Below are positions 15,302-50,965 of a stretch of 64,000 bases of DNA, piece by piece. How positions within the stretch are numbered: the first letter of the stretch is position 1; every line of letters starts with the position of its first letter. A program made the position numbers and the translations under genes. The notes beneath the pieces were generated by a model, which did no database searches, was not told the DNA's origin, and was given only the letters and a program-made list of their open reading frames with translations. The stretch comes from Candidatus Poribacteria bacterium (GTDB taxonomy: Bacteria > Poribacteria > WGA-4E > WGA-3G), in NCBI GenBank assembly GCA_028820845.1, contig JAPPII010000114.1:1-64000 (forward strand), in the 5' to 3' direction.

Positions 15302-16081
15302 TTAATACTCAGACTTGATGTTTGCCCATGTGGTGCTCAATTTGTCCTTAGGATCAACGGAAAATAAAACACCTTTGTTCATATCAGCGTTAATTTCGTC
15401 CTCGCTCAAGGCACGTGTATAAAAAGCAAACTCATCAATAAATCCGTTGAGGTATTGAATATCTGCCTCATTGTCCTTGCAGAGAACAATAGCACCCGTC
15501 GGTGCGGCAAAGATTGTGAACTTACCACTCCAATCATCTTCACCCACCACTTTGCCGTTGAGATAAGACTTCTGAACTTTGCCGTCATACGTGCCAGCAA
15601 TATGCACCCACTTCTTAGTTGGTAGAACCGGAATCGGTGTCCGGTGTTCTGTGTTTTTAGTGTCGTAGATGTAGAACACCATATCCGCGGCCCCTTCGAT
15701 GAAGGTTTCCGCGGGCCACGCTCCTGCAGCATTCAGTGATTCCCAGATTTGCTGTGTGTCACCGGTAGGTGCCTTAATCATTACCCAATGCTCCACGGTC
15801 ATCTCTGTGAGTTCAACGTCGGTGAGGCCGGGTACCTCTGGTGGTGATTTAATAGCGCTTTGCTCACACTCCATCGCACCGCCAATTTTGCCCTCCTTGC
15901 TCCAGTCTGCGCCATCGACTTCGGCATCAAACCCGTTCCCGGTGTCGTCTACAACCTCTTTGTCATCATCTTCGTCGAAGGAGTAGTAGATTAGTAGGTC
16001 AGGATCGTTCCGAATCGCTTCAACGTTCGCTGAAAACGCGAGGACAGCACAGAAAGCCAGCCAGAATAGTAACCTTTTCAT
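15302..16081 (-). CDS. Secreted LamG/concanavalin-like protein with TTWA-type tail
   Basis: 259 residues, ATG with GGAG 8-11 bases upstream, signal peptide to about SANVEA. The opening LLIYYSFDEDD...DDTGNGFDAEV is the standard start of a LamG_3/ConA-like lectin domain. It is followed by E-H-W-V, K-W-V-H-I-A-G-T-Y-D-G and G-F-I-D-E-F-A-F-Y-T-R-A-L-S-E-D-E-I, the usual last strand of that domain. The tail reads VDPKDKLSTTWANIKSEY. Such domains bind glycans or act as spacers on extracellular proteins; no catalytic domain is attached. It forms a tandem pair with the LamG gene at 16157. Confidence 0.85.
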   Translation of the reverse strand: MKRLLFWLAFCAVLAFSANVEAIRNDPDLLIYYSFDEDDDKEVVDDTGNGFDAEVDGADWSKEGKIGGAMECEQSAIKSPPEVPGLTDVELTEMTVEHWVMIKAPTGDTQQIWESLNAAGAWPAETFIEGAADMVFYIYDTKNTEHRTPIPVLPTKKWVHIAGTYDGKVQKSYLNGKVVGEDDWSGKFTIFAAPTGAIVLCKDNEADIQYLNGFIDEFAFYTRALSEDEINADMNKGVLFSVDPKDKLSTTWANIKSEY

Positions 16082-16156: not shown

Positions 16157-16936
16157 CTATCTGTTCGACTTAATGTTCGCCCAAGACGTAGTGAGTTTCC
16201 CTTTCGGTTCTATAGGTGTTAGGAACGACGTAGCATCTTGGTCCATGCTCGCTTGGATCTCGTCAGCCGAGAGGGCACGCTCCCAAAGTCTAACCTCGTC
16301 AACGCTCCCTGTCCATGCTTCACCGCCCCAGGTGCCGATAGTCACCGCACTCGTGTTTTGAGCAGGCGCGACCGGGTTGCCGGATTCTTCGGAATACGTC
16401 ACCTCGCCGTCCACATAGATCTCCACTAAGCCGTTGTTGTCGTCTGTATGAGTATAAGCGAGATAGTACCATCTGCCTAACTCTAATTCTGTTTCGTTAT
16501 CGTTAATATCTTTGAATCCACCATTTGCACCGTTTGTCCAAACTTTGATACCGTTTCCTGGATTCATACCGAACCCGAAACCGATATGCCGAGTTGCCCC
16601 GCTCTGCCGGGTACCGAAGATAATAGCGTGTGCGTTTGGCAGTCTGTCGAGTTGCACCCATGCTGCCTGTGTCATCGCGCCTTCGAGATGGAAAGCAGCG
16701 TCGTCTTCAATAAGGACGTGATCTGCAGCCGCCCCAAATTGAAGGGCTTTGCCGAATTGTCTGTCAATCCATGTTGCGCCGCCCATCACTTCGCCTTCAA
16801 ATCCGTTTGGTGAGAAGTCTTGTGTCACGGACCCCGAGCCTTCATCAAGCGACAGAACAAGCCCGTCCATTAAATCAGCGTGCGCGAATGCCGTCGTTAT
16901 GAGTAGACAGAATGTGATTACTGAAAAAATTTTCAT
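16157..16936 (-). CDS. Secreted LamG/concanavalin-like protein, second copy
   Basis: 259 residues, ATG with GGAG 6-9 bases upstream, signal peptide to about AFAHA. The LamG landmarks are LSLDEGSGSVTQDFSPNGFEG, M-T-Q-A-A-W-V-Q-L, W-Y-Y-L-A-Y-T-H-T-D-D and G-S-V-D-E-V-R-L-W-E-R-A-L-S-A-D-E-I. It ends IEPKGKLTTSWANIKSNR, the same tail as the neighbouring secreted proteins. Sequence identity to the 15302 protein is modest, so the pair is an older duplication or independent recruitment. Extracellular binding role inferred. Confidence 0.85.
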   Translation of the reverse strand: MKIFSVITFCLLITTAFAHADLMDGLVLSLDEGSGSVTQDFSPNGFEGEVMGGATWIDRQFGKALQFGAAADHVLIEDDAAFHLEGAMTQAAWVQLDRLPNAHAIIFGTRQSGATRHIGFGFGMNPGNGIKVWTNGANGGFKDINDNETELELGRWYYLAYTHTDDNNGLVEIYVDGEVTYSEESGNPVAPAQNTSAVTIGTWGGEAWTGSVDEVRLWERALSADEIQASMDQDATSFLTPIEPKGKLTTSWANIKSNR

Positions 16937-17442: not shown

Positions 17443-17522
17443 TTGACAATTTTATGCTAAATGATGTATAATACACTTAATTTCAAGATTTTCTTGCATT
17501 TAATAGCTGTATCGTGTATAAT
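17443..17522 (+). promoter_or_regulatory. Promoter pair P1/P2
   Basis: P1: TTGACA 17443-17448, 18-base spacer, TATAAT 17467-17472. P2: TTGCAT 17494-17499, 17-base spacer, TATAAT 17517-17522, followed by GTAACCG. P1 resembles P3 and P2 resembles P4 in their flanks, so the two pairs are copies of one module. Confidence 0.65.
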
Positions 17523-17599
17523 TTTAACGTAACCGCAGCGGTTTTCGGTTTTGTGATAGCAGAGCAGTTGACTGGAATTGCGGTGCATTCAAAGAAAAC

Positions 17600-17733
17600 T
17601 TGACAATTTTAGTTACATCCTGCATAATGTGCATGAGAACCTAAGAAGATACTTGGCAAGTTAATCGTAAATGGTCCATCATGTTCATGAGTGCTGAAAA
17701 TTACTTGCATTTAAAATGTGTATTATGTATAAT
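17600..17733 (+). promoter_or_regulatory. Promoter pair P3/P4
   Basis: P3: TTGACA 17600-17605, 17-base spacer, CATAAT 17623-17628. P4: TTGCAT 17705-17710, 17-base spacer, TATAAT 17728-17733. P4 is followed by a small hairpin, GGTAAC...GTTACC (17738-17757). P4 is the promoter nearest to the gene at 18028 and would give a leader of nearly 290 nt. Confidence 0.65.
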
Positions 17734-17739
17734 TTAGGG

Positions 17740-18000
17740 TAACCGAAAAAAGTTACCTTGACACAAAGGTTTCAATCGTTATTACGATTGAATGGAGAAC
17801 AGGCAGAAATGTCTGCAAAGGAATGCGGGGCCTGCCCCGCGAACAGGCTTCGCACCTGTTGCCTCCAAAACGCGAGGCACGAACGACGCGAATGTAGTGC
17901 GGTAACCCACACACAGGCGCGTAGCGTCCCTGCTGTTAGCGCGGTGGGGGTTGATGAATGTGCTCGAGCACATCAACATAGTTTGTTTTAAAGTTTTTCA
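17740..18000 (+). ncRNA. Candidate structured RNA or long structured 5' leader
   Basis: A run of hairpins follows promoter P4: TTCAATCG/CGATTGAA (17771-17792), GCAGA/TCTGC (17803-17816), GCGGGG/CCCCGC (17825-17840), AACAGG/CCTGTT (17842-17860) and GCCTC/GAGGC (17861-17878). Next comes a larger nested stem with CCCAC/GTGGG outer arms (17906-17948) and an ACAG/CTGT inner pair. The last is TGTGCTCGAGCACA (17959-17972) inside TTGATG...CATCAA. Local GC content rises sharply. I recognise no known riboswitch or housekeeping RNA. It could be a cis-acting leader of the 18028 gene or a separate small RNA. Confidence 0.4.
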
Positions 18001-18027
18001 AACTTAACTTTAAGGAGAATTGAATAG

Positions 18028-19629
18028 ATGAAAACGTTTTCACGTTTAAGTTCATTTGCTTACTTTGTCCTCGTTTTCTCGGGTATTGCGTTCATGCTTG
18101 TTGGTAATCTGGCTGATGCGCAACAGGATGGGCTGCTGGTCGAAACAAATAAGCAAGCAGGTGATTATGCTATAGGGGATACAGCAGAAGTGAGATTTAC
18201 TGTGACACCTGAAGCTGAAATTACCCTCAATGTTTCATGGGTAGGTATCAATGTCACGTCTGTGGTTGGTCAAGGTGGAATTATTGCCGGCCCTCATACT
18301 TCGCCAGCAAGGTACACTACTGATGGTGATACAGGTCGTTTGGTTGTTACGGGTACTGTGATATCATCCGGTGCTCACGTTACAGCAGTTTGGCCTGAAG
18401 GGGGTAACAATGGTCTGGAGGCTCGGGCGCTTCTCGGTGGAAGCCCGGATGCTCCGAGGATTGTTGTGGGACCGCCTAATGTAAACGGCACGGGAACACG
18501 CTCGCCACTGCAGGTCGGCGATACCCTCACGCAACAGATTTGGGCTAGGGATTTTCTGCCACCAATCATTACCAGTGATTTATCGGCATGGCAAATGGAG
18601 ATTACATACAATCCCCAGATACTTAGCCTCGTTTCAGTCACTGAAGGTGATTTTCTTGAAGAGGGCGGCATAGATGCCCTTTTTATGGCAGATACGAGAA
18701 CTCGCGGTAAAATCAAGGCATATCAGGCTCGTATTGGACGACAAACTACTGATGGTGTTGAGACGCTTACGCCAGCCGTGCCGGGTGTCACTGGAAGCGG
18801 CTTGCTGCTAACAGTGGAATTTAAACTGTTGGAATTTGCAGAGGAAGCCTTGGGCTTGAGCAATATTCAACTCAGTGATTCACAACTGACCGCAATCACT
18901 GATAATGCCTCACAAGCAAGTCGAGAATCTTACCATGTTGTCGTCAATCCGATTGTTGCGACGAACAGGTTCCCGGCAGTGGATGTCAATCGTGATGGCA
19001 TGGTTGATGTGATGGATCTGGTCGCCATAGCTGGTAGCCTTGGAAATGTCGCAAGTAATCCGAGGACAGATGTGAACAACGACGGTTTTGTCAATGCCCT
19101 TGATCTTATGGCAGTCGCTTCAAGTGCGTCATGGGGACAGGCAGTGGCAACTATTAACATCCGAAGCGCAAATAATCCGGATGCTGATGGTAGTGCCCCT
19201 GTTGCCAGCGTGGCGAACGTCACACCTGAAACGATTCAAGCGTGGATTGGACTCATACAGGTTGAGGACGATGGTTCCGCTATCTTTAATCTCGGTATCG
19301 CGAATCTTGAGGCACTTCTGGCTTCCAGAATTCCGAGTGAGACGAAGCTCCTGCTGAACTACCCGAATCCGTTCAACCCTGAAACGTGGATTCCGTATCA
19401 GTTGGCGAAAGCCACGGAAGTCACTGTGATGATCCATTCCATGAACGGTTCCCTGATTCGGACCATTGAATTAGGACATCAGGCAGCTGGCACTTATAAG
19501 AGCAAGAGCCAGGCGGCATATTGGGATGGTCGTAACGAACTCGGCGAGCAGGTGGCGAGTGGACTCTATTTCTATACGCTGACTGCTGGCGATTTCACAG
19601 CCACGCATAAAATGCTGGTTCGGAAGTAA
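18028..19629 (+). CDS. Secreted cohesin/dockerin-type protein with C-terminal sorting domain
   Basis: 533 residues, ATG after AAGGAG. The signal peptide ends near NLADAQQ. Residues about 35-125 are an all-beta region; about 150-310 form a cohesin-like domain (DTLTQQIWARDF, WQMEITYNPQILSLVSVTEGDF, SGLLLTVEFKLLE). Next is a type I dockerin with two calcium loops, DVNRDGMVDVMDL and DVNNDGFVNALDL (about 312-365). The last 90 residues are the sorting domain: NYPNPFNPETWIPYQL, WDGRNELGEQVASGLYFYTL and a closing RK. Cohesin-dockerin pairs hold extracellular complexes together. A promoter array and a hairpin-rich leader precede it and a strong terminator follows, so it is a single-gene unit. Confidence 0.88.
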   Translation: MKTFSRLSSFAYFVLVFSGIAFMLVGNLADAQQDGLLVETNKQAGDYAIGDTAEVRFTVTPEAEITLNVSWVGINVTSVVGQGGIIAGPHTSPARYTTDGDTGRLVVTGTVISSGAHVTAVWPEGGNNGLEARALLGGSPDAPRIVVGPPNVNGTGTRSPLQVGDTLTQQIWARDFLPPIITSDLSAWQMEITYNPQILSLVSVTEGDFLEEGGIDALFMADTRTRGKIKAYQARIGRQTTDGVETLTPAVPGVTGSGLLLTVEFKLLEFAEEALGLSNIQLSDSQLTAITDNASQASRESYHVVVNPIVATNRFPAVDVNRDGMVDVMDLVAIAGSLGNVASNPRTDVNNDGFVNALDLMAVASSASWGQAVATINIRSANNPDADGSAPVASVANVTPETIQAWIGLIQVEDDGSAIFNLGIANLEALLASRIPSETKLLLNYPNPFNPETWIPYQLAKATEVTVMIHSMNGSLIRTIELGHQAAGTYKSKSQAAYWDGRNELGEQVASGLYFYTLTAGDFTATHKMLVRK

Positions 19630-50746: not shown

Positions 50747-50872
50747 TATGTTTTGATGGCTTTCGGCTTTCAGTCTTCGGTTTTCAGGGCCCCGTTTGTG
50801 GCAATAAAGGCGTTTGAAATTGCCACACGTTCTACTGGCGGTTTCCGATGGCTGATGGCTGACAGCCTAACA
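50744..50872. repeat. Degenerate palindromic intergenic element, copy I
   Basis: The left arm GATGGCTTTCGGCTTTCAG and right arm TTTCCGATGGCTGATGGCTG carry the family words. The core TTGTGGCAATAAAGGCG...GAAATTGCCACACG is the cleanest in the window. The element sits between the riboswitch aptamer and its terminator, so it is part of the transcribed leader. Confidence 0.6.
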
Positions 50873-50873
50873 T

Positions 50874-50950
50874 ATTTCCCTACGCTGGTATGATCCAGAT
50901 CAGGTTCAAAGGGTGTTTTCTCAGCTCTTAAGCACATAAGAGCACCCCAT
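50874..50950 (-). promoter_or_regulatory. TPP riboswitch (THI element)
   Basis: On the minus strand it begins GGGGTGCTCTTA, contains CTGAGA, then ACCCTTTGAACCTGATC, and ends TACCAGCGTAGGGAAA. These are the conserved parts of the TPP aptamer (helix P1 closing GGGGTGC-type 5' strand, the TGAGA loop, and the ACCTGATC/ACCAGCGTAGGGA 3' half). It lies about 210 bp upstream of the thiX start and controls thiX-thiY-thiO-thiS-thiG. Confidence 0.95.
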
Positions 50951-50965
50951 AATGTTGTTAATAAT

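Follow-up and report, generated by a model that had tools for sequence, protein, structure and literature searches.

Which element occupies the long intergenic stretch in front of a secreted-protein gene of a sponge symbiont, and what could it do for that gene? Poribacteria live in sponges as symbionts and have not been cultured; the locus lies in a Poribacteria genome of 5.7 Mb (GCA_028820845.1). The window, that is, the whole stretch of DNA analysed in the present study, covers 64,000 nucleotides of contig JAPPII010000114.1. Here, two minus-strand genes for LamG-domain secreted proteins (15302-16081 and 16157-16936) are separated from a plus-strand gene for a 533-residue secreted protein (18028-19629) by a long intergenic stretch, in which tandem promoter-like sites are followed by a chain of hairpins. 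The original prediction, made by reading the letters of this region, had claimed at least seven stems in a GC-rich patch and had regarded them as an undescribed structured RNA or leader of a surface protein.

Results

The claimed stems were found in 17738-18022, among them the nested one and the palindrome CTCGAG (17958-17973), and the GC-rich patch within AT-rich DNA is evident from the sequence. The RNA of 17740-18000 folds with -99.5 kcal/mol (z -5.27), and none of 200 dinucleotide shuffles was as good. The opposite strand folds similarly (z -5.08), and an RNA that begins at the presumed start and ends at codon 11 of the led gene gives a z of -5.25. Eighty stretches of 260 nt drawn at random from the window had a mean z of -0.38 (sd 1.13, minimum -3.10); the hairpin chain, at -5.21 in the same test, is the strongest fold outlier against these sampled stretches. 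The chain extends past the borders first proposed for it (17740-18000), to about 18022, where the Shine-Dalgarno itself lies within a predicted hairpin, and at its other end those borders had split the 5' hairpin.

All elements of the chain are on the plus strand. It begins with the 5' hairpin GGUAAC-CGAAAAAA-GUUACC (17738-17757), located 5 nt past a -10 box at the presumed RNA start, followed by the hairpin UUCAAUCG-UUAUUA-CGAUUGAA (17771-17792), which belongs to the window fold and is not kept in the relatives. Hairpin 2, GCAG...CUGC (17803-17816), corresponds to helix 1 of the covariance model described below and is its weakest helix (81% paired). Hairpin 3 (17825-17840) is present in all seven genomes that carry the leader, with GCGGG/CCCGC in six of them and GUAGG/CCUAC in genome G026, where two pairs have changed on both sides; conservation favours this simple hairpin over the minimum-energy pairing of 17824-17834 with 17844-17854. 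Hairpin 5, GCCUC...GAGGC (17861-17878), is kept in G009 and G026, shifted in G060 and missing in G072 and G076. A long-range stem, CGACGCG/CGCGUAG (17884-17924), encloses an inner hairpin; in the seven genomes, three of its pairs carry changes on both sides, for example GACGCG/CGCGUC in G009 and GACACG/CGUGUC in G060. Three pairs with both-side changes were also found in hairpin 7, CCUGCUG...CGGUGGG (17928-17949). Hairpin 8 is the palindrome AUGUGCUCGAGCACAU (17958-17973), which reads AUGUGUUUAAACACAU in G026 and AUGUGUACAAACACAU in G076, a change from C-G to U-A on both sides. In the last hairpin (17979-18022), the Shine-Dalgarno AAGGAG (18012-18017) is predicted to be paired.

For comparison with relatives, a DNA search yielded one clear homologue (G009) and a fragment (G026), and a search with the G009 leader gave G060, G072 and G076. 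Five sequences were aligned and folded jointly (alignment A1), and a covariance model (R1) was built from A1. Against 83 genomes of the class, R1 regained its five members and detected two held-out members, one copy each, in G072 contig 45 (E 1.5e-29) and G061 (E 1.0e-18), both at the same gene. When 85 genomes of the phylum were scanned with the rebuilt model R2, these seven members were recovered and no others; both scans ran with stricter filters, and weak members may be missed. BLAST matches to signal-peptide DNA in G007, G023 and G037 were judged to be chance, and the locus was not recovered in G081, a genome of the same species as that of the window. The distribution is thus seven species of one Poribacteria family, and BLAST and the model agree on one leader copy per carrier genome, which is not the multi-copy pattern of REP- or MITE-type repeats.

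In seven of seven cases the leader stands immediately upstream, on the same strand, of a secreted-protein gene whose product starts with MKTFS or a close variant. For G009 this junction was inferred, because leader and gene lie on two contigs. The facing contig ends (L069 1838-1902 and L070 1-64) share the inverted repeat ATTTAAATGAGGGTGTTTCATAAAT, which suggests that a mobile element may have been inserted between the Shine-Dalgarno and the start codon of the led gene. In the window, the 533-residue product contains a cohesin-like stretch, a dockerin, FlgD_ig and a T9SS tail; since the T9SS type A sorting domain (TIGR04183) scores above its cut-off, its description as a surface or secreted protein fits. 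Codons 1-5 of this gene (18028-18045, ATGAAAACGTTTTCA) hold the palindrome GAAAACGTTTTC, which is kept in five of the seven species and could form a start-codon hairpin.

The compensatory changes by which the original prediction had proposed to be judged were found: nine of 34 pairs were changed on both sides (0 of 500 shuffles). In A1, 93.5% of the cells pair and the nine pairs lie in four helices; when the 3' partner was slid by 1-3 columns, pairing fell to 32-50%, and no slid register reached the both-side count. The seven-sequence alignment, which was fitted to the model and therefore leans towards it, is 91.8% paired, with nine such pairs and 14 cells (again 0 of 500 shuffles). Four homologues each fold better than chance (z -4.2, -2.9, -8.9 and -4.2). 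Among the modelled pairs there are 23 G-U against 5 A-C, an excess that assigns the RNA to the gene's strand (plus). Since only seven sequences are available and four of these are short of at least one helix, the covariation is convincing but not deep. By these alignments, the hairpin chain is neither coding nor a chance pattern but an RNA structure of the gene's strand that has been conserved. Together with the recovery of two more members at the same gene by the five-member model, the compensatory changes bear out the idea of a structured RNA or leader at a surface-protein gene.

A frame of 77 codons, also pointed out originally, does run through the chain (17758-17991, plus strand, TTG start), and a Pfam search with it gave no match. 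Codon-wise evolution of this frame would have spoken for a protein; the mismatches between the window and G009 are spread as 17/19/21 over the codon positions, without bias, one single-base gap in each sequence breaks the frame, and G009 has an in-frame TGA at the homologous place. Between G076 and G072, a small upstream frame (13/10/15) and a 95-codon frame (8/8/10) show no clear third-position excess. The led genes of the window and G009 do have such an excess, with 181/149/271, and the G060 and G061 leaders are less clear (6/4/11). On balance, these counts indicate that the leader evolves as RNA and not as protein.

The leader is also under tighter constraint than the gene that it leads. 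Nucleotide identity is 69% for the leader against 60% for the gene between the window and G009, 86% against 78% between G060 and G061, and about 86% against 54% between G076 and G072. In the last pair, conservation begins about 0.9 kb upstream and stops at the gene, with an identity of 76-95% for each 100 nt between about -774 and the start codon, and identity beyond about 1 kb is 0.2-0.5. The G076/G072 leader is an island of constraint between promoter and start codon. Recombination of the gene behind a common leader could partly explain the high identity of these two leaders.

The tandem promoters proposed upstream are real as consensus matches, all on the plus strand: TTGACA-18-TATAAT (17443-17472) matches 12 of 12 positions, TTGACA-17-CATAAT (17600-17628) matches 11 of 12, and two TATAAT boxes lie in a 35-nt direct repeat, the second copy of which holds promoter P4, TTGCAT-17-TATAAT (17705-17733), the other copy being at 17490-17524. 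Promoters matching 10-12 of 12 positions also precede the leaders of G009, G026, G060 and G061, with shuffle means of 0.1-0.4, and a weaker one, TTGCAA-17-TATAAT, precedes those of G072 and G076. By direct reading, a hairpin with an A-rich loop just past a -10 box recurs in G009 (GGUAAC/GUUACC), G076 (GGCAAC/GUUGCC) and G072 (GGCAAC/GUUGUC); it is absent in the G026 and G060 leaders. The transcript probably starts at the hairpin 17738-17757. It is strongly suggested by these matches that tandem sigma-70-type promoters start the transcript and that the last of them places the hairpin at the very 5' end.

Measured from the last promoter-like site, the window has a shortened form of the leader, of about 290 nt; the leader of G061 measures about 550 nt, those of G072 and G076 690, those of G009 and G026 850 and that of G060 930. 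The five relatives of about 690-930 nt have a small frame and a poly-C module, in which the palindrome TTAACTNNNAGTTAA (unclear in G026 and G060) is followed by a C-run of about 8-12, and a 41-nt hairpin motif occurs in the long leaders of G009, G026 and G060. G061 and the window have neither the C-run nor the 41-nt motif. The 3' hairpin chain is the part kept by all seven, and as the window and G061 have kept it without the middle part, it looks like the indispensable part of the leader.

Several observations were made around the poly-C module. The 41-nt motif, GCACCTTGG..TCC..GGAA..AAGGTGCTA, occurs with zero mismatches in four genomes (L069 1498-1538, L071 1835-1875, L079 1502-1542 and L080 1502-1542), with zero hits of the reversed pattern; at L080, in G072, it stands in front of a different secreted-protein gene. 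The idea that this motif is a coding segment like that of a DUF1156 methyltransferase (L087) was dropped, as protein comparison was not supportive. L087 itself (G060 contig 195, 390-735, minus strand) encodes a DUF1156 methyltransferase; its frame breaks in the N-terminal part, at a C9 run, for which phase variation, pseudogene formation and an assembly slip are all conceivable. In a sister Poribacteria genus, a multi-copy element consisting of TTAACTATMRGTTWA followed by 6-16 C gave 19 matches in seven genomes (up to seven per genome; reversed pattern zero), for example at L124, L126, L127, L132, L136 and L143, around locus position 1500. This element precedes genes for secreted or membrane proteins, and 100-150 nt downstream of it there is usually a GC hairpin and a T tract; no Rfam match was obtained for the three tested. 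In a subgroup of six, 6 of 32 pairs were changed on both sides and the codon counts (151/211/154) look non-coding; with these counts and no third-position excess, a small frame of the poly-C leaders that ends in Pro-Pro-Pro is not supported as a conserved, stalling leader peptide.

Pairing of the Shine-Dalgarno was inconsistent among the genomes. It is predicted to be paired in the window (mean unpaired probability 0.26 in the local fold, with AAG at 0.1 or less in the full leader), in G060 (0.18) and in G061 (0.24), but largely unpaired in G026, G072 and G076 (0.57-0.71), and the hairpin that holds it is not conserved.

The leaders of the window and of its relatives were compared with 4227 families of Rfam 15, including riboswitches, T-box, ribosomal leaders and introns, and none matched at gathering score; at a permissive E<10 there were only chance-level matches, none of them credible. 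Elsewhere in the window, a TPP riboswitch is located at 50859-50959 on the minus strand (71 bits). In a full-text literature search, with subscription papers and preprints outside its scope, no leader or structured RNA was found to be reported in Poribacteria.

Discussion

We favour, with somewhat better than even confidence, the reading that the chain is a cis-acting mRNA 5' leader of a secreted surface protein, made from strong promoters, which would protect the transcript and limit its translation. According to this proposal, the strong tandem promoters would drive an abundant transcript for the surface protein, the stems of the chain, together with the 5' hairpin, would shield this transcript from degradation, and the last stem would hold the Shine-Dalgarno and limit translation until it is opened by a protein, a stress or the load of ribosomes. 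Control of translation is the weakest of these steps, because pairing of the Shine-Dalgarno is inconsistent and its hairpin is not conserved. With this site mostly closed in three genomes (window, G060, G061) and mostly open in three others (G026, G072, G076), the folding predictions make a role as stabiliser or insulator likelier than a true switch.

The region might instead be a decayed coding frame in which the stems are incidental. The 95-codon frame is open through the region in G072 and G076, G009 has a long open stretch, and there is a weak collinear similarity to the DUF1156 methyltransferase gene L087. We find this reading hardly credible, since the pairs co-vary, the substitutions between G072 and G076 are nearly even over the codon positions, the frame is interrupted in both the window and G026, and a tblastn search with 13 frames from DUF1156 loci gave no convincing match to the leader (best E 0.06). 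Function at the level of DNA, as palindromic protein-binding sites or the remnant of a mobile element, would agree with hairpin 8 being a perfect DNA palindrome and with the inverted repeats nearby. Its presence as a single copy, at the same gene in every carrier genome, argues against it, and the preponderance of G-U over A-C pairs fits an RNA of this strand and not a DNA site, which renders this explanation very improbable.

Two further explanations accept the RNA and assign it another role. In a sensing leader, either riboswitch-like or protein-binding, the chain would serve as an aptamer, and a ligand or protein would alter the pairing of the last stem and hence the access of ribosomes. 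The covarying structure kept at one gene only and the Shine-Dalgarno pairing predicted in three of seven members speak for such a leader. Aptamers, however, typically have highly conserved single-stranded residues, and in the present leader it is mainly the stems that hold the most conserved letters; the leader is tied to one surface-protein gene and not to a pathway, and Rfam gave no match, so that we hold sensing to be unlikely. If the leader was cut or terminated early, it could give a stable trans-acting small RNA, with the mRNA being secondary, as the strong promoters and the free-standing fold would allow; moreover, the related poly-C elements of the other genus terminate in the manner of independent small RNAs, with a GC hairpin and a T tract. 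Nevertheless, no consensus plus-strand terminator (GC stem directly followed by a U run), the mark of a transcription attenuator, lies between 17740 and 18028, and the structure reaches the Shine-Dalgarno of the led gene and is found only there, which makes a small RNA quite improbable. A broader proposal is that the window's chain and the relatives' poly-C leaders form one modular, Poribacteria-specific leader class, in which the exposed C-run flanked by hairpins would act as a switchable or phase-variable element, base-pairing to Shine-Dalgarno sequences in cis or in trans and coordinating many secreted proteins; we regard this as decidedly doubtful.

Whichever role the leader may have, the analysis has yielded a well-defined RNA family that can be searched for by its model and that goes with one secreted surface protein. 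Its spread over seven species of one family limits its reach. Should the leader control a surface protein in contact with the sponge host, the way in which the symbiont regulates its surface display would become testable.

The leader is an undescribed RNA family within a known kind, the structured mRNA leaders. It resembles the riboswitches of Rfam and the protein-autoregulated leaders in being a conserved structured leader before one gene, but differs in having no Rfam family match and no known ligand. Bacterial surface-layer (S-layer) genes have long, stable 5' leaders with several promoters. The leader can be likened to these in its tandem strong promoters, its long untranslated part and its secreted product; it differs by a chain of some nine hairpins that shows covariation and by the optional poly-C module. 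The leader of E. coli ompA is a 5' stem-loop that stabilises the mRNA. Common to both are a hairpin situated at the presumed 5' end, or no more than a few bases from it, and structure that reaches the ribosome binding site, although the Poribacteria leader is longer, its 5' hairpin is absent in two relatives and its stabilising effect is putative. Finally, the poly-C element of the sister genus has the palindrome TTAACTNNNAGTTAA and the C-run in common with the long forms of the present family, but it is multi-copy and without the 3' hairpin chain, whereas the leader of the window has this chain without the poly-C module.
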